A DNA stretch of 64,000 nt, taken from Setaria digitata (taxonomy: Eukaryota; Nematoda; Chromadorea; Rhabditida; Setariidae). The notes beneath the pieces are model-generated. The model did no database searches. It worked only from the letters and a program-made list of their open reading frames with translations, and had not been told where the DNA came from. The number at the start of each line of letters is the position of its first letter. The first letter of the stretch is position 1. Shown piece by piece: positions 12,292-36,019 of this stretch. Made by a program: the position numbers and the translations under genes. The DNA lies in assembly GCA_003640385.1 (NCBI GenBank), contig RCAB01000001.1, forward strand, positions 434,001 through 498,000, in the 5' to 3' direction.

Positions 12292-15200
12292 AGTATTGAA
12301 TTAAGAAAAGACCGATTCCAGAGAATCATACGACAGTGTTACGAGGCGGCAGAGCGTGCGCGAAGGTGCGGTCGTGGCAGTCTGAGTGAAAGCCAGTTTA
12401 GTGAGGTGCAGCAGTACTGCGACATGATCGAAAACATCTTTTTCTTGCGATGTCAACGATCAGCGATGAACAGGAGTGCAAACAGTGCTACTGCCAACAG
12501 CAGTGGAAACTGTAGCAGTGTCGAGAGCGGTCGTTGTCTGAGCAATCTATTGAGCTGTCGAGGACAGACTGATCACGAGCCTAGTACTAGTTCACTTAAC
12601 TTATACTCCGATACTCCTTTGAAGTCTCACTCCGGACTGCGACTGGAACGTGTGAAGGATGGCCCTGCACTCTTGGCTGAATATGGGCAACTGTCTACAG
12701 TCGGGAAAATTCCTAATTCTGAAAAAATATGTCAGGAGCGTTTGTATCCCATTGATTTTCAAATTAAAAATGCTCAGAAAAGATTAAAGTATCAAAAAGC
12801 CGCAGATTCTGTATTATCTGAATTCGAAGCTGTTCTGCTAGCTCGAAATATGGTTGGTAACAGAGATTTTGAATTCCCACGACCAAGTAATTTAAAATTG
12901 AGTCGAAATTTGGAGATTTTAATGTCAGCGATGAGCACTCGATGTCCTGAATTAAAACCTAAGTTATCCGATATTTATTCCGACACCGAGGATTCGGGCA
13001 GTATAATACTGTGCTCTGAAAATTTAAATCTGAATGTTTCTGATTCCCTTCATACTGATTCTGGATTGCCTTTTATTGAATCTCGGTTTTCCACAAACCA
13101 ACAAGACGAATTAGGATTAATAACAAATATTTCTAATTGTAAGAGTGTGCTAGAAACTGTTGATGCTCCCTGTTTCTCCTCTGTTCAAGATGAGGTTTCT
13201 GCGATGGAATCCAAAGAGATAGAAGGAATGATTAAACAAAGTAAAACGAATATAGTCTGGCCAAAACTAGAATCTTACGCAAATGAACTTGTTGCGAAGA
13301 TTATTCACTCAGTAATAGAAGTGGAGGAAGATTGGAAGAAATGTTCACACCGGAACGTTGAAACCATAGGAATAAGAGACGCAGTAACATCAACAGTCCT
13401 CACTTCCAACAATTATCCAGTGCTGAAAAGAGGATCTGTTGTGATGCTCAGTGACGAAAATGGAAAAGTTCAGGATGGAATCGACAGAAACATATCAGTT
13501 CGTACCAGAAGGATTCTGACGCAAAATGTTGATCATCAGATTGAAAATGTTGTAGAACCTCTGCCAAAGACAACTACAGGCATTAGAACTGTTCTAGATT
13601 TTGGTGATGTTTCAAGACAGGACAAGTACAGGACCAAAAAGGTGAATAATTTATCAAAGATTGATAGGCTTTGCTAGTCCGTAACTCATTCCCGAAGAAT
13701 CATAATGTCTCATTCATTTCTTTTTCGAAAACTCTTCAGTTCAAAACTTGATAAGTTGTACAGAATTAATTGATCAAGTTTGGTAATAGCAGTAATGTGA
13801 TTGCTAATGTGGAAAGAAGAAATTAGCAAATTTTTTTTCAAATTCTTTTTATATAGATGCTAAAATTATTGCTTACTGCTTTCAATTAATATTTAAAGAG
13901 TAAGCAAAATTTATGTCGAATACACAGCTGACACCATCTACTCGTAAAAACTCGGGCAACTACCACCTTTTCCCATTTACTAGCGAGCAGTAGGAAGTGT
14001 GAATGATATCCTCTTCTAAACAGTGATTTACGGGGAATCAAATTAAGGGGTGAAAGGTCACCTATCGCGAGGAGACAGGCGACGTGGCATCTTTGCAAGA
14101 TCAGTTAATTTGCTGCATCATTAATGCGTCGATTTTTATTTTAGATTATTATCGAAGATTACGCGGAGATGGAATTGAGTCATAATCATATGACAGAAGA
14201 CCTCTACGACTTACAGCGAATACCTGGAGGCAGTGTCAGTTCTGACCTATCTTTAATGGCATTTCAAGCTATCCTGAGGACATCGATTTCAGTGACGCCA
14301 CAATCTGTTTCAACCACTGTCCTCCCAACTTCGGTTTATTCAGGTAGTAAATTCGCAAAAGATGGGGAGAAAACTGGAACTGATTCAGTCAACGTAGAAG
14401 ATGAATTAAGTAGGAAGATAAAATTGCAGAAGTTATTTGACGGTAAAAGTAAAATCAAAAAGTACTCCATAATGGGCCACCTCGATCAGGAAGACAGAGT
14501 AATTCGTAGTGAAGAAAAGTTTGCTGAAATACCAAAAGTGCTTCAGAAACCAAAGTCGAGCAAAGAGTGGTATTTATCATCCAACACGGAAATGAAACCT
14601 ATTGTTGCTGGTACGAAATTTGTGCGGAAACAGACAAAGCGTGAAACAAGTGAGGATTCTACTTTCCAGACGAGATGCACTATCATTGGCAGTAAGTTGC
14701 TTAACAGCAGTGCAAGCAACTCGAGAATTGTAAACTTAGTTGGAAAAAGTATAACCAACGAAATCACAGCAGGAAGTAATCAGACTACGAATCATGCTTT
14801 AACTGAACAAAATGAAACAACTGCATTAACGAGTACTAATCCCGAAAATTCATTGGATGATGTATCGATGGAAAAATTGCACTACACTCCTGGAATATGC
14901 TTAATGGAAATCAATCAAGATTTATCTGAAAATTTAATTCAAACAGTGAAAAAGTTCGACATGAGCGGGACAAAGTCCAAAAGCGAGTCGTTGAGTAATG
15001 GATCACTGTTCGAAAAATACACAAATTTTGAACCACCATCATGTAAGTTGCAAAGAGTTCCGGAATTTGATGCAGTACCTTTGTCTCCGGAACAACTGCA
15101 ATCAAAATGCAACTTAATACGCCAACCTGTTCCGAATGAAGAATTGATTCCAAAGAAACAGTGGCGTCGTGATCAGATGTTTGGTACAGATAATCACAAA

Positions 15201-16372
15201 GAAGTTCCGAGAGATCTGATGCTTTCTAGTTTTGAACAAACAAAATTAGAAGCCGCTGGGTCAATCAGTCCTAGCACAATTCAGATGAAGGCCATTGCAG
15301 AACTAGCTTCTAAAGAGCAAGATCAATTTTTATTAGCATCCGTCTTTCTACCCTCAGTATCTTCAGGATCACATACCACTGTAGTCATCCACAGAGCAAC
15401 TGCACCGAAACCACAGATGGAAGCGGAAGAACAGGGTGGACCGAAATCGAAATCAACCGTGAAGAAAACTTGCGCTGAGGTATTACCTTCGCTTAGCAAA
15501 GATGGCAGTGAATACTGCCAGCAACAGGTGCAGCTGGAAACATTCCCTGGTGCTGCAGACCCACAGTTGTGCTTGAGTGCTCTGCAGAAGGCTGCAACTA
15601 GTGCGCCGTGTAGAGGAGGATTGGATGAGGGAATCCTTGTTTCTTCTAGACCATCCTTGCCACCTAGACCCAGGCAGATAGGAGAGGAGCCTGCTGTGAT
15701 CAAAATGTTGCAGTCACAATTTCAGTACGGCGCTTGTGAAGGCAGAATTGGACCTTCAGATTGCAACAAGACCCCTTCTGAGTCAGAGGTTTGTCAGATT
15801 ACCGAACCAACCGATCCATTTCCTCTTCTGTTAGAGAAGACACCACAAGCTGAACAGCCACCGGAAAGTAAACTTCGAGATGACGCAGTTGACATCAACG
15901 TAGATGAGGAACAGCGAGACAGAAGTAAAAATTCTTCTAGGACCATCTTTCAACCGGAAAATAAGTAAGTTTATATCACTCGTTCATTCCTGAAATGAGG
16001 GATAAAGTAATAGGAAATTATTGCGATTAGTTATGCAAGTTTAATAATTATAATTTGTTTTTTCCTTCCAGGTTACTTCCTGGTACAAAGGAAAGTAGTG
16101 AATGGGTAAATGATAATCAGACGTCAAGAAAATCTCCTACACCGTCCGAACTCATCCAAATTCCACATTTTGATGCAAGAGCGGAATTCGATAGGCGACT
16201 TTTGGCCAAGAAGAATCGTCGTGGGGAAGTGCCGGTTATCGTAAAAAGTGCAACCTCAAGATCTGATAAAAAGTTATCAGGACGTTTAACTGAAGACCCA
16301 CTAATTTCCTCTACATTACGGCTGAGCGCTAGTGAGAAACCCGATTTCAATTTCATCATCAAAAGGAAGTGA
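12292..16372 (+). CDS. large nematode protein of unknown function
   Basis: Three exons join without phase conflict: about 12292-13641, 14145-15964 and 16072-16372, giving about 1,150 visible residues. The frame is open from an acceptor-like TTACAATTAG at 12291, so the true start may be in an upstream exon; the first in-frame ATG is at 12424. The first segment (RFQRIIRQCYEAAERARRCG, then CDMIENIFFLRCQ) looks helical and folded. The remainder is Ser/Thr/Glu/Lys-rich, low in hydrophobics and probably disordered, with a proline-containing patch (RPSLPPRPRQIGEE) late in exon 2. The C-terminus is basic (DFNFIIKRK). No transmembrane segment, signal peptide or known domain is visible. The long exons contrast with the small exons of neighbours, and the donor GTAAGT at 15965 is perfect. 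I do not recognise the family. A polyadenylation signal AATAAA is near 16440. Confidence 0.8.
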
Positions 16373-17923: not shown

Positions 17924-19887
17924 ATGACAAGTGGAGATGACGTGTGCGTGGATGGAGCTGAGGCTGAGAAGAAGATGTCAAAAAAAGAACTGAACAAATT
18001 GGCAAGGCAACAGAAGAAACTAGAAAAAAAGGCTGAGGTTAATTCAGTTTTCCAGACTTCTATTTGCCTGCTGCTGGGAGTTTGTATTTTGCATTCTGTG
18101 ATGGAGTTTTTGAGTACTCCAAAAGATGTCGGTAAGGATTACTGCTTTCTTTTTTCTATTAAGGAATGTTAAAAACAACTTTTTCAGTAATGTATACATT
18201 TTAGCATGCAGCCGAACAAGTAGAGGAGAATGAAGAGGAAGTGGAAGATGTATCTAAAGGCCTTTATGGAACATATGGAATTATACAGTCTGTTGAGCGA
18301 AAGAAATTAGATTTCGTCGATGTTAAAGACATTTTGATGGATTTGGAAGGGCAGGAGGTATGTATGATATAGATTATTTGTGTGTGGATTCAAAAAACAA
18401 GTGATATGAGAATATATGTTTCAAAACTTGACGAAGCACAGTGCAATTAGCATAGACGAAAGCATGGTCTATATAAGAATATGAGGATGAAAATTGAAGG
18501 TTAGGAATTTATGTGTCATTGTCTCCGAATAGAATAGATTTGTGATGTGCAAAATTGGAAGGTTTGGACTGAATGTAAAAGTGCTTATAAAGTGCTTATA
18601 AAAGTCATAATTAAAATACTTGAATCTGAGCTGCATTTTGAATGTAGCAGTTTTTTTTCGCTCTGAAAACGGAAATAATTTGCAAATCAAATGCTTTGAT
18701 TATTTGGAAACTTTTCAGATTTGGATTCGAGGTCGTTTGCACACGTCAAGAGTTAAGGGAAAAACTTGCTTCATTATCATTCGTCAGCGAATGTATTCTA
18801 TACAGGGGATGTTGTTTGTAGGCCCGACAACTAGTAAAAAAATGCTGAAATTTGTTGGGAACATTTCAAAGGTAAGGTGCACTGTAGTGAATGCCTTTTT
18901 AATGATATCTCATATGAAAAGTTTTTCAGTTTTCTTCATTTAGGAATCAATCATTGATATTCGGGGTGTTGTAAGAAAGGTAGAGCAAGAAATCACCAGC
19001 TGTACACAGAAGGAGGTCGAATTACACATAACACAGTTATTTATTGTAAGCGCAGCAGAACCACGTCTGCCACTGCAGATAGAAGATGCTGCTCGAATTA
19101 AAGAGGAAGGCAAAAATGGAGATGATGCATCTTTATCCGTTGTGAATCTTGACACACGTCTGGATAATAGGTGATTTTCAGTTTAAGCTGATACTGTGAA
19201 CTTTCATTTGTAATGAAAAAGTTATTGCAACTTAACTATTTGAATTGATCCATTACATCTTTTCTGTGGTTGATTAGATATCTTCTTTTCGATGCGAAAG
19301 AGACCCTATTTAATGGAAGTTTTTGGTAGGAATAATTCATAAATTTGCTTTGAAAAACTAACTTTAAGAATACTGGATCTTCGTACGCAGACAAGTCATG
19401 CTATTTTCTCAATACAAGACGGCGTTTGTGAGTTGTTCCGAAATACTCTTAAAAAACGTGGTTTCACGGAAATACATACTCCAAAAATCATTTCTGCAGC
19501 TAGTGAAGGAGGGGCAAATGTCTTTGAGGTCAGTTATCTCTCTGATCCTTTCAACAGATTCACAATTTTGGTCGAATCAACAACTTTTTATTTCCAGGTA
19601 TCGTATTTTAAAGGCTCCGCTTACCTTGCTCAGTCACCGCAGCTATATAAACAAATGGCAGTCGCTGCAGACTTTGATAAAGTAAGTGATTTTCTGAGTT
19701 AATCCATATTTCTCGTAATGATAATTCGTCTCATACTCTGTGATAAATGTCTGTTTTACAGGTTTTCACGATTGGGGCTGTTTTCCGTGCTGAAGACAGC
19801 AATACTCATCGACATTTAACAGAATTTGTTGGGCTTGATATTGAAATGGCGTTCAAATTCCACTATCATGAGGTTTTACCTTATGAA

Positions 19888-19935
<48 letters not shown>

Positions 19936-21378
19936 GTTAGATGAAGATTAGAGGTGTATACTTTTTCCATCAGTATGTTTTTCAAGATGAAGTTTTAGGT
20001 TCTTGAAACAATTGGTGCTGTTTTGATTGATATATTCAAAGGTTTGCAAGCCAAGTTCCAACACGAAATCGAGGCGGTTGGTAGACAGTATCCCTGTGAG
20101 CCGTTCAAATTCATTGAGCCCGCCCTCATACTCAAGTTTGTTTTTGTCGTAGTAAAGCATAAGTCCACGTTATTAGTTCTCTTTTCCACAGGTTTTTTAC
20201 TCTTACTCATAAATTGTTCCATTTATTCACTCTTTTTTATTGAGACTTTACTGTGTTGCGATTTTGATATGAAGCTTGGATATGTATTTGTTAATGGTCG
20301 TTCTGTTCCATCACGCTTCCTAACCCAAAGATTAGGTTCTTTTTGTTTCCCTTAATTATGTGGCATGACATTAAAGTATTTTCTATCTCTTTATTAAAGA
20401 GAAATGGATAATTGACACATGCATTGCTGGAAAATTGAATTCCCTGCATGTTTCAGATATCCAGATGCAATCGGACTTTTGCGAGAGAATGGTGTCGAAA
20501 TAGGAGATGAAGATGATTTAAGCACACCAGTAGAAAAATTTTTGGGCAGGTTGGTAAAGGAAAAATATCAGACTGATTTCTACATACTTGACAGATACCC
20601 ACTCGCAGTTCGTCCCTTTTACACAATGCCAGATGCAAAAGATCCGAAGTATTCTAACAGTTATGATATGTTCATGCGAGGTAAAGTCTGTCTTAATTAT
20701 TCGATGTCTGCTATGAGTAGTGTAACTTTTGGTTTTTGCCCTAATCTGTGCTCGTGATATCTAATTACACTTTCAGTAATAATGTAGTAGTAATTTTGTT
20801 AACTGCTGTTCGGTTTTAATTATGTTAACTGGGTTCGGTTCCATCACTTTTGATAGCGCGATAATAGGGCTATTTTTGCTTCCTCTGATTATGCAACATT
20901 AAAGTCTAGTAAAAAAAAAAAAAAGTAAAATAATTTTATTGCTTGAATAAGGTATAACTTTTTTTGGTTGTACAACAGTTCATTTGTGATGAGGCACTTG
21001 CAAGAGTTTAGTCGGGATGTTGGAAAATGTTTGCCAGTTTTACAAATTATTAAACTGTTTCATAAAGCTGCTCCAATTCCAGGCGAGGAAATACTATCTG
21101 GTGCTCAGCGAATACATGATGCTGCTCTATTAACTAAAAGAGCTCAACATCATCAAATCGATCTGGAAAAGATCCGAGCTTATATCGACTCATTCAAGTA
21201 TGGTTGTCCACCACATGCTGGAGGCGGAATTGGTATGTACTTTTTATTTTCAGATTTGTTTTCGAATATTGAGAAAATTTTTTCAGGACTAGAACGTGTG
21301 ACAATGCTGTTTCTTGGACTTGGAAATGTACGCTTGGCATCCCTTTTTCCTCGCGATCCGAAAAGAATAACGCCGTAG
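17924..21378 (+). CDS. DARS1: cytoplasmic aspartyl-tRNA synthetase
   Basis: Class IIb synthetase that charges tRNA-Asp in the cytosol. Eleven exons, all phase-consistent: 17924-18037, 18205-18357, 18719-18871, 18944-19170, 19369-19528, 19598-19681, 19762-19872, 19999-20135, 20457-20680, 21083-21232 and 21287-21378; 534 residues, a little longer than human (501) because of the N-terminal extension. Order of domains: Lys-rich amphipathic N-terminus ([18 protein letters not shown]) typical of eukaryotic AspRS; OB-fold anticodon-binding domain ([10 protein letters not shown] onward); hinge; catalytic domain with [15 protein letters not shown], motif 2 in [15 protein letters not shown] and motif 3 in [16 protein letters not shown]; terminus [10 protein letters not shown], as in the eukaryotic family. 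An acceptor (GGATTTCAG, AG at 17908-17909) 14 nt upstream of the ATG indicates trans-splicing. A 42-bp TA repeat occupies intron 7. Intact and complete. Confidence 0.97.
19892..19933 (+). repeat. (TA)21 microsatellite in a DARS1 intron
   Basis: Uninterrupted TA dinucleotides starting 19 bp after the donor of DARS1 intron 7. It should be highly length-variable between individuals. Confidence 0.95.
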
Positions 21379-22114
21379 AAATTTGTTTTACATGGACGCT
21401 AAATTATAATTGTGTGTTGGGATTATATTATTTGCTATGTCCTTTCTTCCCAGTTGGCCCAGTGTTTTGTCATTGCAAGTGAATTTATTTTGGTTCACAA
21501 GATAATTCATTATCGCTTTCCATATAATTAACATTTTTGTTCTGGTAAAAGATATATCGTTTTATACAGTTATTACGAAACATTCATTTTATTTAAATCA
21601 ATAGGGAGAGGAGGAAAGGAATGACTAATGCTCCATCTGTATTGGCAGTTCGCTGGGATCTTATAAGGCTCTCCTTTCCATTTTTCGACGCCTTATTTTG
21701 TCTTTCAGTTATACAGGTTTTCCTACCATTATAATGCTAACTTATTTTTGAGTAGTTAAAAAAAAAAATGGTCGAGTAGTACGTAGCTTACAGAATATTT
21801 ACTAAGACTAATGTAACATCATGTTCGTTGAGGCTGCACCCCTTTTTCACTTCCTTCCCGGCTTTTTGCTATTACTATGTCATGCACAATACAGCGTCGC
21901 CATAGTCAATATAAATAATCATATTCCATACAGGACTGCTTTTTCGTTCAGAACTAGAAATTTTTTCCAAATACTGGTAAATGTCATTTTTTAGCTAAAT
22001 TGCTTTTTTAAACAAATTTTCGCACAGTTGGGCAAGCATTTTTTTTTAATTCTTTGCATAATCAAGTCACGAAGAATTAGTTCACAAAATTTCAATACAG
22101 CGCAGTTGTACATT
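21379..22114. other. convergent 3' intergenic region
   Basis: DARS1 (plus) and the P2X7-domain gene (minus) converge here, so it holds both 3' UTRs. No coding signal is seen. Confidence 0.6.
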
Positions 22115-23603
22115 TCACTGCGAATGCTCCAAATCGATGTAGTTCCACATATCATCACCTTCTTCATATTCTTCGAAGAAACAGGATCCAAACAATGCAA
22201 ACAGTCCTGGATAAGCTGTGGAGACTTTCTCATCTAATGGATACCTCTGTAAATTCCAACTGATTAAACCCAAACTGGAATATTTTGAGAATCTGAAACT
22301 AAAAATTTGTGTAGCGAAATTGTTACAATACAAAGAAATTTTAAATAAGGACAAACCTCCACTATTTTGCTGAGAACACAGAGTGGCGGATCCATTCGGT
22401 TCCCTTTTGCCTCTCTGCCATGAATCCAATAGCTGAAAGAGCGATAAGCCAAATAACGATATTCACGATTGGTAAATGTAAGTATATTTCCAAGCCAATT
22501 CGGACACACTCCTGTATGTTCTGCTAATATGTTTAACACCTGGAATACTGTTGCATAAAGATATCCTCAAAAGTTCCGACAAGGAACTGAATGGATAAAA
22601 AACAAATGAATGTTCTCAACATATAAGTCTAAGCATTCTGCTGGGTGGAAGTGCACTAGGAAAACTTGTAAATATACTAGAACGATCCTAGTGAGGCGGC
22701 TACTACAGTTTATAAGTAATCATATGAACTATGCATTGTTGCTGTTCGTTGCAGTATAGGTAATGTTATTTATCACCAACAAATCTTATTTCTCCCACTG
22801 CATTAATTAAAACTGTCTAAAAAATGTGGTACCATGAAACCTACCTCCTTATCCAAGCAGACGCTAGCAAACGACCCATGCTCCGTAATGCATTCTAAAT
22901 TAACCATCTTCTGGGTCAATCTTTCCGCATGGGCACAATTTCCATTTAAGACACTTTCGGCTTCACAACAGCAATATGCATAGCTAGCCATATCAATCAT
23001 CATTTCAGTATAATATAAAAAACCAACAGTTATCTATTAAAAAGAAGGAAAAATGAAGGAAGGAAAAATGCAATGTACTATATACGGTACATGGAAGCAG
23101 CTTTAAAAAGAAAAAGAGTAAGCTAAGCTTTTACTTACAAGATTTTAAAAAAAATTTTTAAATTATGAATATGACTTCCAACACCTGCTCAATAATATAA
23201 TAGCTTGAATAAAACTTACCAAACAGGAATGTGGGGAACCGGTTTACAGTGACCACATGTACAAAAATCACTCACATTTCTAATGCGTCCTTCTCGCAAA
23301 TGACATGACAGAATGTAATTTTTCCTAAAAAGGGTCACTGATATTAGTGATATATATTCTGAATGCTTAGTCCTTAACCAGTGTAAGAAATCAAGTGCGT
23401 TGAAACGATGTAAAGAAGCAATAAGTTCCAACAACCCAAATTATATCTTTCTTCATTTACCGTTCACTAACTCGTCGTTCAACATCTCCGAATGCCATTC
23501 GATAGAAGAAATCGGTGTTACTCGCAGTCATAGGTACAGATGTTCGTCGGAGTTGATACCGTGCCCTTCTTCTTGCAATTCTCGCTTCATCCATCCGTGA
23601 CAT
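22115..23603 (-). CDS. stand-alone P2X7-type cytoplasmic (ballast) domain protein
   Basis: Five exons in consistent phase: 23461-23603, 23220-23324, 22845-22983, 22357-22539 and 22115-22246; 233 residues. The protein carries the Cys-rich cytoplasmic domain known from the C-terminus of vertebrate P2X7 receptors (P2RX7_C), where it binds zinc and guanine nucleotide. Residue positions: C69-T-C71-G-H73-C74-KPVP; the C87-C88-C89 cluster; C114-ITEH followed by SFASVC125LDKE; then REYRYLAYRSFSYWIHGREA (about 154-173), the most recognisable block; C183-VLSKIVE; and a C-terminal RYPLDEKVSTAYPGLF like the R-x-x-FP...Y-x-GF end of the family. The first 47 residues are Arg-rich (EARIARRRARYQLRR) and there is no signal peptide or transmembrane segment, so the ion-channel part of P2X is absent. 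Acceptor choice for exon 5 (ATTTACAG) follows from frame. Function outside P2X7 is unknown. Confidence 0.82.
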
Positions 23604-25228
23604 CCTCTTTTGCCTTCTTTTTTATAAACACTGCAATAAGTTGACTAAATAAACATAAGATTGGCTGGAACGATACGTTCTCGACGACCGGTGTAACTTA
23701 TCCCTCAGACGGATAACTACTGAGTTCTACTTGCGAGATGAAGACAAGACCGGAAAAGAATAATGCTGAAAATAGTCCAGAAAACAGCACAACTGATACG
23801 AAAAGTAAAAAGGGTATATAATCCACTTCTTCCTTAAACAAGAGAAGCAACACAACTGACAAATGAAAATCCACTCGACAGCTAAGAAATTTACAAAGAA
23901 AGGCAACTGATCGGTCGCACAGAACACACAAAGAGATCCTATCTCCCTTCTAAGCTGCTCCTGACACACCCTCAAAGCCGACTCAGAAGCCAACTCCTGT
24001 CCAGCTCGAGACAAGAACTGTCAACCTAGAGCATAAGAAGAAATCTAGTAGTAAGAAGACTAACCCTACTCTTAAATACCTCCTGCTAAGATCACATATG
24101 CAAATTAACACCACGTACGTCCCTTCGCCCTCCTTGCCAATTCTTATTCCCAAAGAACACTTTGGAATTGTTGCAGAAGTGATCGGCTTGTTCTTTCAGA
24201 GCGCAAAGAAGACAGCCCATCACATATCTCGCGTTGTCTACGTGAATCCGATCATCAGGGACGTGTGAGTCGGTTAGTGCCCTGCGTAACGTGATGTGTA
24301 GTTTTGGCAGACCATATGGTTCGAGAAGTAACGTTATCCTATCCTAGGATCACGGGAAACATTACTTAGGTCTTAATGAGTTAGGGTCAAGTGAGAGCCA
24401 AAGTGATACCCCGCAAGCAAACCATGAAACTAATCGTTCCATTATCCATCATCCCATTCATCGTTTCCTCTTTGAGTTGTTCTCCAAGCTAATCAACCAG
24501 TAACACAGTTGTCCACAGCATACTGTATTATTAATTCTCTTAGGCCAATAAAAGTGAGCCTAAGCCTTGTCTCTTACCTCCATGAAGTGGACAACTGCGT
24601 TCATGAATGAGACCTTTAAGGACGTTCAGTTATTACGTCATCGCAAATTGAATCTTCTTCAGTAGTTGTAATAGTCGTCTCTGCTGATATGAATTTCCTG
24701 ATGTATAAGTGGGGACTGTCGGGGCTGAGCTGTTTTTCTGGCTCACGTCATGACTACCAGCAGTTTATAATAGAAATGACATCGGACGTGGCAGCTGATA
24801 CGCAGGTACGTAGCATGCGTGACTTGACATTTTGTGCTGAATTTTCTGTTTAATTGCTAAAGACTACTGTCACAACATGGTGTTGTTATAGACATTAAAA
24901 ATGCGAAATGCGGAAAATTATGAACTTTTTCAGATATTACTGTAGATGATCCACTTTTAAGTAAGCTTTGATACGGGAGTATTATTTCCTGGATTCTTTA
25001 CGTGTCTCCGGCAAGCTCCAATATTCTTAGTTATGAGGAATACAAAGGTAACATACTGCTGAGCGTCTCTTATCCTCTTACAGTTAGCATGATATACTGA
25101 TCAGGAACGCAAATATTTTTATTCAATATGTCTGTGTCTCGCACGAATCAATCTTGTGATATGATTGCCAGAAGTGAATTTTTTGTCAAGAAAATGACTG
25201 ATTATTAGGGTGAAATTTGTACAACTCA
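23604..25228. other. intergenic with exon-like plus-strand fragments
   Basis: No gene I can name. Plus-strand pieces look like exons. ATG at 23737 opens a Lys-rich frame that can splice near 23814 to an acceptor at about 23957 (TTCTAAG) and continue about 100 codons to a strong donor (GTGAGT, about 24265). Separately, a frame from an acceptor at about 24660 runs about 48 codons to CAG|GTACGT near 24806. The two do not share a phase as read. The minus strand also carries an overlapping 95-codon frame at 23727-24014. Confidence 0.35.
23737..24264 (+). CDS. possible two-exon fragment of an unknown lysine-rich protein
   Basis: Exon 1, about 23737-23813, encodes MKTRPEKNNAENSPENSTTD and ends at a GTATAT donor. 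Exon 2, about 23957-24264, starts after TTCTAAG and joins in phase to read KKAAPDTPSKPTQKPTPVQL and onward for about 100 codons. The composition (Lys, Pro, Thr-rich, later hydrophobic) is protein-like and the splice is phase-consistent, but both signals are only moderate and no family is recognised. The end at a donor implies missing 3' exons. It may be a pseudogene or chance. Confidence 0.25.
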
Positions 25229-26577
25229 TTACTTAAAGTGATCTGTGTAATATTGAGCAGCACCATAGATGCTTTGACGGGTGCTAGTTCGTTGTTGTTG
25301 TTGAGGTTCTTCTCTTTTCGCGATATCATCCTTACTTGATATCTGATTTTGTTGCCTAGATCGAGATGGAACTGAAATAGCTGATAAAAACAGAAAGATT
25401 CCAGTGATTTTTAACTCAGAAAGCATGATTTTTTTCAGTAGAAAAGCATTCGGAATTAACTTACTGTTGGTGATGCTCTCCCCAGAATAGTCTGATACGT
25501 TAAATTTCGGATAATCTGTATTCCCCTACAAGGTGAATATAATACAGTTTGGCCAATACTGTGCAACAATTCTAAATTGCAATGAAAATAGAGCTGATCG
25601 ATTTTTTGGTTTACTTACTGATCCTGACAAAGAAACCTATAAGAATCTTAAAGTGATTACATGAAGTGGCTTGATTTTATGTTTATAAAATAAATTTTAA
25701 ATTAAAAGTAGTACTGTTTATGGAATGAATACACACATGAAGTAAATCAGTTAACGCAGCAATGTAATTAATTGCAGCGCGTAGAATTTTTAGTTTCGAC
25801 ACTCGTTTGGCATTGGATCTTATTGCCGGTAGATGATATTTCAATGCAACAAATGCCTGTAATAAAAGACTAGCTAACTGCTTGAATTCGAAAATACAAA
25901 TTCATCACTGATCATTTCTATTTCCCTTTCTATCGAAGTCATCATGTAATTGCTTGACTCTGAAAACACAGAAAGAACTACTCCAACTAGTATAGTCTAC
26001 ATTTTCACAACATGCATTTATTTTGTAGGTATGTAAATTAAATCTCTACATATATACTTTTTTTCTTTTGCAGCACACTATTGAAATTCCGTGCTAATTG
26101 AGACTTGTTAATTAGTGATGTTTTGAAAATGCCAGATTTTATTGAACTAACTAGCTTTGCAAATCACTACTAACACTACTGTGTGAGATATGTTTTAATC
26201 CGCCTAGAATGAGTAGATCAAAGATCATTCAGCTATAATCAAATCTATACAGTGACTCTTGCAGGTAAGAAGTAGTAGGTTGATTTGGCTCGTGTAATCG
26301 TCCTCCAAGGTTGTTTTTCTCAAGAATAGGTTTCAAATGGGGTTTTATAGAAAAGTGTGAGTAAAATGAATGACCCTCAGAAATGTTGGCCGAATACTTC
26401 AAAATACAAGGCCGGGACCAGGTTGAGTACCATTACAAGTAGTACCTGATTAACGGCGTGAACGCGTGTTCGTTCTCGAGCATTCCTTTTCGCTACCATG
26501 AATGGTGGACGTTCCCACGTACGCTTCAATACCTTTCGTGATCCCTTGTCAAATTGCAGTGTAGTTGCAATATGCAT
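25229..26577 (-). CDS. basic helix-loop-helix transcription factor
   Basis: DNA-binding class A (proneural/ASCL-like) bHLH protein, 160 residues, five exons: 26446-26577, 25737-25856, 25619-25636 (18 nt), 25465-25525 and 25229-25380, all phase-consistent. The basic region KRNARERTRVHAVN (about residues 30-43) has the E-R DNA contact pair; helix 1 is AFVALKYHLPAI; the loop is short (RSNAK); helix 2 is RVSKLKILRAAINYIAALTD, followed by LLH. The bHLH is split by an intron just after VNQ. The C-terminal tail is Ser/Gln-rich (EEPQQQQRTSTRQ) without a recognisable domain. The start is set at the ATG at 26577 because an acceptor (GCCACTTCAG) lies about 13 nt upstream; the longer open frame above it has no ATG. 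The RVHAVN basic region resembles achaete-scute and other nematode hlh proteins, but exact orthology is not assigned. Confidence 0.88.
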
Positions 26578-34900: not shown

Positions 34901-36019
34901 TCGGTCTTCCTGCTTTACGGTTTTTCAACAACAAACTAAACTTTCTCTAATTTAGTAGCACAACAATACCTTTTTTTCATTTAATCCAAATTTACCCAAA
35001 ATAAAGCTAAAAGTTCTCTTAACAGACAAAATTTGAAGAGCACTAATTTTCCAAAATATGCTACTTGTTGAAGAAATGTGGAATGTAATCAAAAATTAAC
35101 TCCTGTAAAACTTTTTTGATTCACAATTTAGCTTCCTAATTTAACAGATATTTAGCTTAAAAGTTGGAATTGAATTCATGTACGAAATGTTTAAAATTTT
35201 GCATAACTTTTTTAAGCAGTCCTATTACAAGCATCGTTTATCACCTTCCTAATTAATACCTTTTGAACTCGGTGAGATTATTGGAGGTGGAGGAGAAGGT
35301 GAGGGTGGTGACGGAAGCGGAAACGGCGATGGAGGAGCAGGCGGAGGTGGCGGTGAAAGGGGAAACGGGGGAGGAGGAGGTAGTGGAGGTGGTGGCGGAA
35401 ACGACGGAGGCGGAAAAATCGGTGGCTGTGGTCCAACCAATTGATATTCATCTCCCATCTCTTCCCGCTGGAATTTGTCTCTGCAAAGCTTTGTATTAAA
35501 ATTCTCTCCGTGCTACCGAAATGAAAATTACTGCTAAAATGATTTTGAAGTAATTCTGAATAACTTCTAAAATGCATGAAAGTAATAGATTTTCTCCACT
35601 AGTGCTGAAATCTGAGAGCCATAAACCAAGCTGTACGAGTGATTATTTTGCAAGACGAAGTTCAAACTTCACGAAAGCCGAGAATTCGTAATGCGCAAAA
35701 CTGTTACACAAACAATTACAGAAGCAGATGGATTTCCATTTATATTATTACGTTAGTCAACATATCCTAATTTTTTGAATATGAAAATTTTCTTTAAATA
35801 TATACATCTTCTGACGTTATGCGATATGATTGCAATTTACACTGAAGTGTTTCATTTTAAAAAATTGAATATCTAAATTAAAGAGAATGCATGGAAAGAT
35901 GTGGCATTTTTAAAATATCTGTTAGTGACGAAATGAAAAAAAATTTTTCATTTTTTCATGAATTGAAATGATTTTAAAAATTTTTACATAACACTTTCAT
36001 ATTTGAAGTTTGTTTCTAG
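31979..36019. other. gene-poor interval with weak coding signals
   Basis: Holds the 3' UTR of the ankyrin-SAM gene, then mostly AT-rich DNA. Items noted: a 73-codon ATG frame at 33149-33370 (-); a plus-strand open segment around 33900-34043 reading GLPEIITHLASKRCLDL that ends at a GTAAGG donor; a second open segment about 34115-34239 ending at CAG|GTATGG; an ATG at 34362 (MSNITAKEK then donor GTAAAA); and a polypurine/proline-rich tract at 35249-35458. None can be assembled into a gene. Confidence 0.45.
35249..35458 (-). CDS. possible proline-rich ORF / polypurine tract
   Basis: ATG at 35458 opens 69 codons, of which most are Pro (MGDEYQLVGPQPPIFPPPSF then long PPPPP runs) with Ser and Phe/Leu. 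An acceptor-like ATTCCAG lies about 10 nt upstream and the frame can leave by a donor (AAAAG|GTATTA) just before its stop, so it could be a first exon. On the plus strand the same DNA is a nearly pure purine run (GGAGGTGG-type repeats), so it may simply be a simple-sequence tract whose translation is proline-rich by default. Confidence 0.3.
   Translation of the reverse strand: MGDEYQLVGPQPPIFPPPSFPPPPPLPPPPPFPLSPPPPPAPPSPFPLPSPPSPSPPPPIISPSSKGIN

Follow-up and report, generated by a model that had tools for sequence, protein, structure and literature searches.

A single-copy gene for a free-standing P2RX7_C (ballast/ZCD) protein in the filarial nematode Setaria digitata

The 64,000-nucleotide stretch of Setaria digitata DNA analyzed here (the window) contains, on the minus strand at positions 22115..23603, a gene for a free-standing protein of 233 residues that almost certainly belongs to the P2RX7_C, or ballast/ZCD, family. 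We consider it highly probable that it is a host gene of long standing, present in a single copy and passed on by vertical descent. Earlier work had described free-standing copies of the ballast domain in nematodes and other animals, and the Setaria gene is a well-conserved member of this set rather than a stripped-down receptor. It provides a natural example of a ballast domain outside a channel, in which the zinc core is kept and the nucleotide pocket is eroded, thereby separating two features that, according to PMC9859053, have unknown functions in P2X7. It also cautions that a nematode protein labeled “P2X purinoceptor 7-like” in databases is no evidence of a P2X receptor in the worm.

The product is encoded in five exons, and all four introns have GT-AG boundaries. 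Exon 1 (23461..23603) starts with the ATG at 23603, covers residues 1-47, the Arg-rich N-terminus, plus two bases of codon 48, and ends at a GTAAAT donor. Its stop-to-stop frame starts at 23621, and an in-frame TAA lies directly upstream of the ATG, leaving little room for an upstream extension. Exon 2 (23220..23324, 105 nt), delimited by a TTTTTAG acceptor and a GTAAGT donor, carries the first cysteine cluster, C69-T-C71-G-H-C74. The C87-C88 pair and the C114-I-T-E-H motif follow in exon 3 (22845..22983; weak GCTAG acceptor, GTAGGT donor), and exon 4 (22357..22539; TTCCAG acceptor, GTTTGT donor) encodes the core NREYRYLAYRSFSYW and PPLC183VLSKIVE. Exon 5 (22115..22246; TTTACAG acceptor) contains the end of the ballast domain (RYPLDEKVSTAYPG), the acidic C-terminal tail found in filariae, and the TGA stop. 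The initial annotation had proposed a five-exon product of this length with these motifs, and the spliced product is identical to the public protein UniRef A0A915PIJ5 (“P2X purinoceptor 7-like”, Setaria digitata; 100% identity over 100% of its length); the same gene model is therefore already in public annotation.

To establish the identity of the domain, we combined profile searches, profile alignment and a shuffling control. The P2RX7_C profile (PF20478) matched residues 63-196 over profile positions 76-185 of 192, with an E-value of 2.8e-5 and a score of 24.6 bits, barely above the cut-off of 23.5. The profile match that the initial annotation had called for was thus significant, but its description of the domain as present “end to end” was slightly strong, as the first 75 profile positions lie outside the match and the protein runs on for 37 residues beyond it. 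The same profile matched all nine members of alignment A2 at E <= 1 (best 2.6e-7), and precomputed Pfam annotations assign P2RX7_C to 8 of the 14 proteins found. Alignment by hhalign with a 115-residue fragment of the P2X7 ballast gave a probability of 95.7, an E-value of 1e-8 and 29% identity. The BLOSUM62 local score against the P2X7 ballast was 95, compared with a maximum of 57 among shuffled sequences. None of 2000 shuffles reached the observed score, and all four nematode proteins examined gave this result. The resemblance in sequence between the nematode protein and the P2X7 ballast is not a product of chance.

Solved P2X7 chains were found only weakly by sequence, with an E-value of 0.26 for the single Setaria sequence and 0.014 for a profile of seven nematode proteins. 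AlphaFold2 models reached a pLDDT of 42.7 with the Setaria protein placed first and 39.4 with the Toxocara protein first, values too poor for judging the fold. P2RX7_C was the only Pfam domain in the Setaria protein, the P2X channel domain being absent. The maximum mean hydropathy over 19 residues was 0.93, and no strongly hydrophobic segment was found, in line with the initial reading of the domain as free-standing.

We next compared the cysteines of the Setaria protein with those of P2X7. In the hhalign alignment, C69, C71, C74, C114 and C183 are placed opposite P2X7 C477, C479, C482, C506 and C572. C87 and C88 correspond to C498 and C499 by motif order only, since an alignment gap leaves this pair unmatched. 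The spacing differs here: 26 residues separate C88 from C114 in the nematode protein, compared with 7 between C499 and C506 in P2X7, such that pairing the two CC motifs requires approximately 19 additional residues before CIT. The expectation that the zinc-ligand cysteines would align therefore held directly for five of the seven and, for the CC pair, through motif order. By sequence, the protein carries the seven cysteines in three clusters (C69, 71, 74, 87, 88, 114, 183) by which the ballast-ZCD family is recognized. The CC pair, C114 and C183 are present in 9/9 aligned proteins, and the first cluster in 8/9, the exception being a Cercopithifilaria model that lacks exon 2. This cluster is also missing from the Ascaris P0010 model, which lies outside alignment A2. 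Overall, the Setaria protein shares with the P2X7 ballast (PDB 6u9v and others) the cysteine clusters, an AYRS(F/Y)xxW segment and a C...KI...(Y/F)P end, and differs from P2X7 in having no channel, a longer CC-CIT spacing and few of the listed GDP contacts.

Protein searches yielded 14 distinct proteins in all. The named sources were the filariae Setaria, Brugia, Litomosoides, Elaeophora and Cercopithifilaria, as well as Gnathostoma and the ascarids Ascaris, Parascaris and Toxocara. Local identity to the Setaria protein among P0001 to P0009 ranged from 85% (Brugia) down to 42% (Ascaris P0007). Five of the 14 (P0010 to P0014) are fragments or mis-spliced models, which we left out of A2 and used for intron positions only; two of these, P0013 (E 0.024) and P0014 (E 0.49), passed only a loose limit. 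No protein from clade V nematodes, from cnidarians or from vertebrates was among the 14, and by themselves the searches thus leave the group unconnected to the wider family. Brugia malayi BM1537 and its homologues in Litomosoides, Elaeophora, Cercopithifilaria, Gnathostoma, Ascaris, Parascaris and Toxocara apparently represent the same gene, with exon joints as in Setaria wherever these could be tested. Literature searches under Bm1537 returned a single match, the locus name Bm1_53760, by formatting; those under P2RX7_C returned no nematode study by title, and the matches for P2X in nematodes or Brugia malayi concerned an ivermectin-gated channel.

Intron positions in the relatives were read from the points at which predicted proteins break from homology, rather than from the genomic DNA of those species. 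In Ascaris P0010, for example, homology breaks off opposite codon 48, where intron 1 lies, and is regained at Y84, which marks the end of intron 2; P0010 then ends at codon 190, the position of intron 4. P0014 likewise leaves at intron 1, facing codon 48, P0005 resumes at Y84 as P0010 does, and P0012 leaves at codon 190. Intron 3 is supported by the ascarid-like P0011, which departs one residue past exon 3, as expected for a GT donor read as Val. P0013 was not counted, since its local alignment overruns the expected joint by eight low-similarity residues. Judging from these breaks, the relatives apparently share the same four introns with the Setaria gene.

Exon 2 varies among the annotated models. 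Precisely this exon is lacking from the Cercopithifilaria model P0005, in which residue 48 is joined to residue 84, and Ascaris P0010 has a different sequence in its place. The absence in P0005 could be an annotation error or real alternative splicing. The two ends of exon 2 have matching phases, such that skipping its 105 nt keeps the frame and deletes the CTCGHC cluster.

Exon 4 was the most conserved exon in five of six pairwise comparisons (34 to 55 of 61 residues identical); in Parascaris, exon 3 scored higher. In the three comparisons outside filariae, exon 1 ranked lowest, with identities to the Setaria N-terminus of 12/42 in Gnathostoma, 9/43 in Ascaris and 11/47 in Parascaris. An earlier suggestion that the Arg-rich N-terminus binds nucleic acid or membrane consequently has a poor basis, as this region is poorly conserved outside filariae. 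The acidic tail FFEEYEEGDDMWNYID is present in the five filarial proteins of alignment A1, and both the N-terminus and the C-terminal tail of the ascarid homologues diverge from those of Setaria.

Two further observations concern the ascarid proteins. Ascaris lumbricoides has two different members of the family, P0007 and P0010, the latter close to Parascaris P0008, which suggests a duplication in ascarids. UniRef names some members “F-box protein” (Toxocara P0009) or “MH2 domain-containing protein” (Ascaris P0010). The former name looks wrong, as P0009 matched P2RX7_C and no F-box match was found among A2 members at E <= 1.

The published history of the domain places the Setaria gene in context. 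According to PMC7016195 (Rump et al. 2020), free-standing ballast/ZCD proteins occur across animals, from sponges on; the nematodes that carry them include Haemonchus contortus and Ancylostoma caninum, and none was detected there in C. elegans. The free-standing domain is therefore not the novelty that the initial annotation took it for, as nematode cases were reported in 2020 and the protein itself is already named P2X7-like in UniRef. By the description in that paper, the invertebrate free-standing ZCD proteins (PTHR36981, e.g., Haemonchus VDO68347) resemble the Setaria protein in being typically short, in lacking a membrane span, in the C-terminal position of the domain, in their zinc cysteines and in their occurrence in nematodes. 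Compared with the Haemonchus type so described, the Setaria group has also lost R578, and in filariae an acidic tail follows the domain. The literature also places KolX and Nanor in the ballast/ZCD family: in PMC9587614 (2022, Mobile DNA), the KolX proteins encoded by Kol0 Kolobok transposons are reported to be similar to the ballast domain, with seven conserved cysteines, and KolX is proposed as the ancestor of P2X7 and Nanor. The initial annotation had pictured a nematode “keeping only” the module of a receptor. The history given in PMC7016195 and PMC9587614 runs in reverse, with vertebrate P2X7 arising, in the account of the former, through capture of an older free-standing domain.

We then examined the guanine-nucleotide site. 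PMC7016195 lists R546, H547, R574, R578 and K583 as GDP contacts of rat P2X7; our comparison covered these five, a list that may be incomplete, as PMC9859053 names A567 and L569 as well. Only one of the five is kept: R546, which is R157 in all nine aligned proteins. H547 is replaced by Y, R574 by L, and K583 by L, F, V or M, while R578 is V (six proteins), I (two) or A (one). Since R546 and R578 are described in PMC7016195 as conserved beyond deuterostomes, the loss of R578 represents a departure within the nematode group. Guanine-nucleotide binding by the Setaria protein is thus unlikely on the evidence of these replacements, contrary to the initial annotation, which had described the module as binding guanine nucleotides. 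That annotation also led to the suggestion of a channel-independent, intracellular guanine-nucleotide sensor. The invariance of R157 and the strong conservation of the surrounding YRYLAYR segment speak for such a sensor, but with four of the five listed contacts replaced in 9/9 proteins, R578 among them, we hold it to be improbable.

Instead, we tentatively propose that the Setaria protein would be soluble and intracellular, a module whose fold is built on a cysteine cluster with two zinc ions. It may act as a zinc-stabilized binding scaffold, in which the conserved YRYLAYRSFSYW segment would contact partner proteins or nucleic acid. Such a protein would gate no channel and would no longer use the nucleotide pocket; guanine nucleotides are probably not sensed, given that the basic side chains of the pocket are mostly gone. 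This scaffold mechanism is a possibility to which we attach considerably less confidence than to the identity and inheritance of the gene.

A more specific scenario is that spirurid and ascarid parasites have independently maintained a domesticated KolX that lost its guanine-nucleotide site, kept its zinc core and acts in the nucleus or germline as a regulator, for instance of mobile DNA; some transcripts would skip exon 2 and thereby lose one zinc cluster. We regard this combination as decidedly improbable. The Setaria and ascarid genes may be domesticated KolX, or the transposon may have taken its KolX from such genes.

It is highly improbable that the locus is a Kolobok (Kol0) transposon, live or recent, with its KolX accessory gene. 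The resemblance between KolX proteins and the ballast domain (PMC9587614) speaks for it, and the Setaria protein is indeed like KolX and Nanor, as described there, in being a free-standing ballast-type protein with conserved cysteines. Against it, the gene and its near flanks are single copy: in the 75.6-Mb assembly, all five protein matches are the gene's own five exons, and a search with the 3.3 kb of locus DNA recovers nothing but that locus. The inverted repeats within 20000-26000 are short and imperfect (the longest being 29 nt with 76% complementarity), and none makes a convincing terminal inverted repeat. The gene has four introns at positions that recur in ascarid-type proteins. The window has 70 ORFs of 90 codons or more; none of the 10 that were scanned matched a transposase at E <= 0.01. 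Single copy number, shared introns and the lack of convincing terminal inverted repeats led us to reject a live transposon; unlike the KolX carriers, the Setaria gene is single-copy and intron-rich, and transposon hallmarks were not found. The Kol0 lineage is reported in PMC9587614 from vertebrates, annelids, cnidarians and sponges, a list that does not name nematodes. Searches with THAP and Mutator models, which bear on Kolobok transposases, gave no matches in the genome and none in the control genomes either, a null that is uninformative for these transposases. A viral-contig scan found 22 stretches that fit its patterns, none of which encodes a relative.

The least credible alternative, with next to no probability in our estimation, is that an ancestral nematode P2X7-like receptor lost its channel exons and left the ballast behind. 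In its favor, the ballast domain is present and the search of the genome recovered no P2X channel: the profile search of the assembly with PF00864 gave no matches even at E <= 10, and the positive controls gave 27 (ASC) and 92 (Neur_chan_LBD) matches at E <= 0.001. This null has limited power, since the same search with PF20478 also gave no matches despite the presence of the gene, its exons presumably having been scored separately; among 14 control genomes, only Methanosarcina acetivorans matched in the P2X search, below the cut-off. A P2X channel is likely absent from the Setaria assembly, in agreement with the initial expectation, and nematode P2X genes were apparently lost according to PMC7016195. 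The remnant reading was nevertheless rejected, as the reading frame is closed by a stop upstream of the ATG and, in the account of PMC7016195, the domain occurs from sponges on and outside vertebrates is not tied to P2X architecture. The reading that we retain is that of an old host gene of the ballast/ZCD family.

The surroundings of the gene include a class II aminoacyl-tRNA synthetase (D, K, N type), whose 3' part lies on the plus strand at 19343..21378, with PF00152 matched on three ORFs (E 1.7e-20, 2e-7 and 8.8e-15). Its last ORF ends at 21378, making it the 3' neighbor of the ballast gene in a tail-to-tail arrangement; it is not part of the system. Rfam gave no matches in the window at gathering thresholds. 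Two long open frames on the plus strand, at 12292-13674 (461 codons) and 14145-15965 (607 codons), had no Pfam match at E <= 0.01. On the minus strand, the ORF at 48815-49384 matches the CNOT1 CAF1-binding domain (CCR4-NOT; E 7.4e-17), and a tandem repeat of a 42-bp G-rich unit in 2.7 copies occupies 35288-35400.
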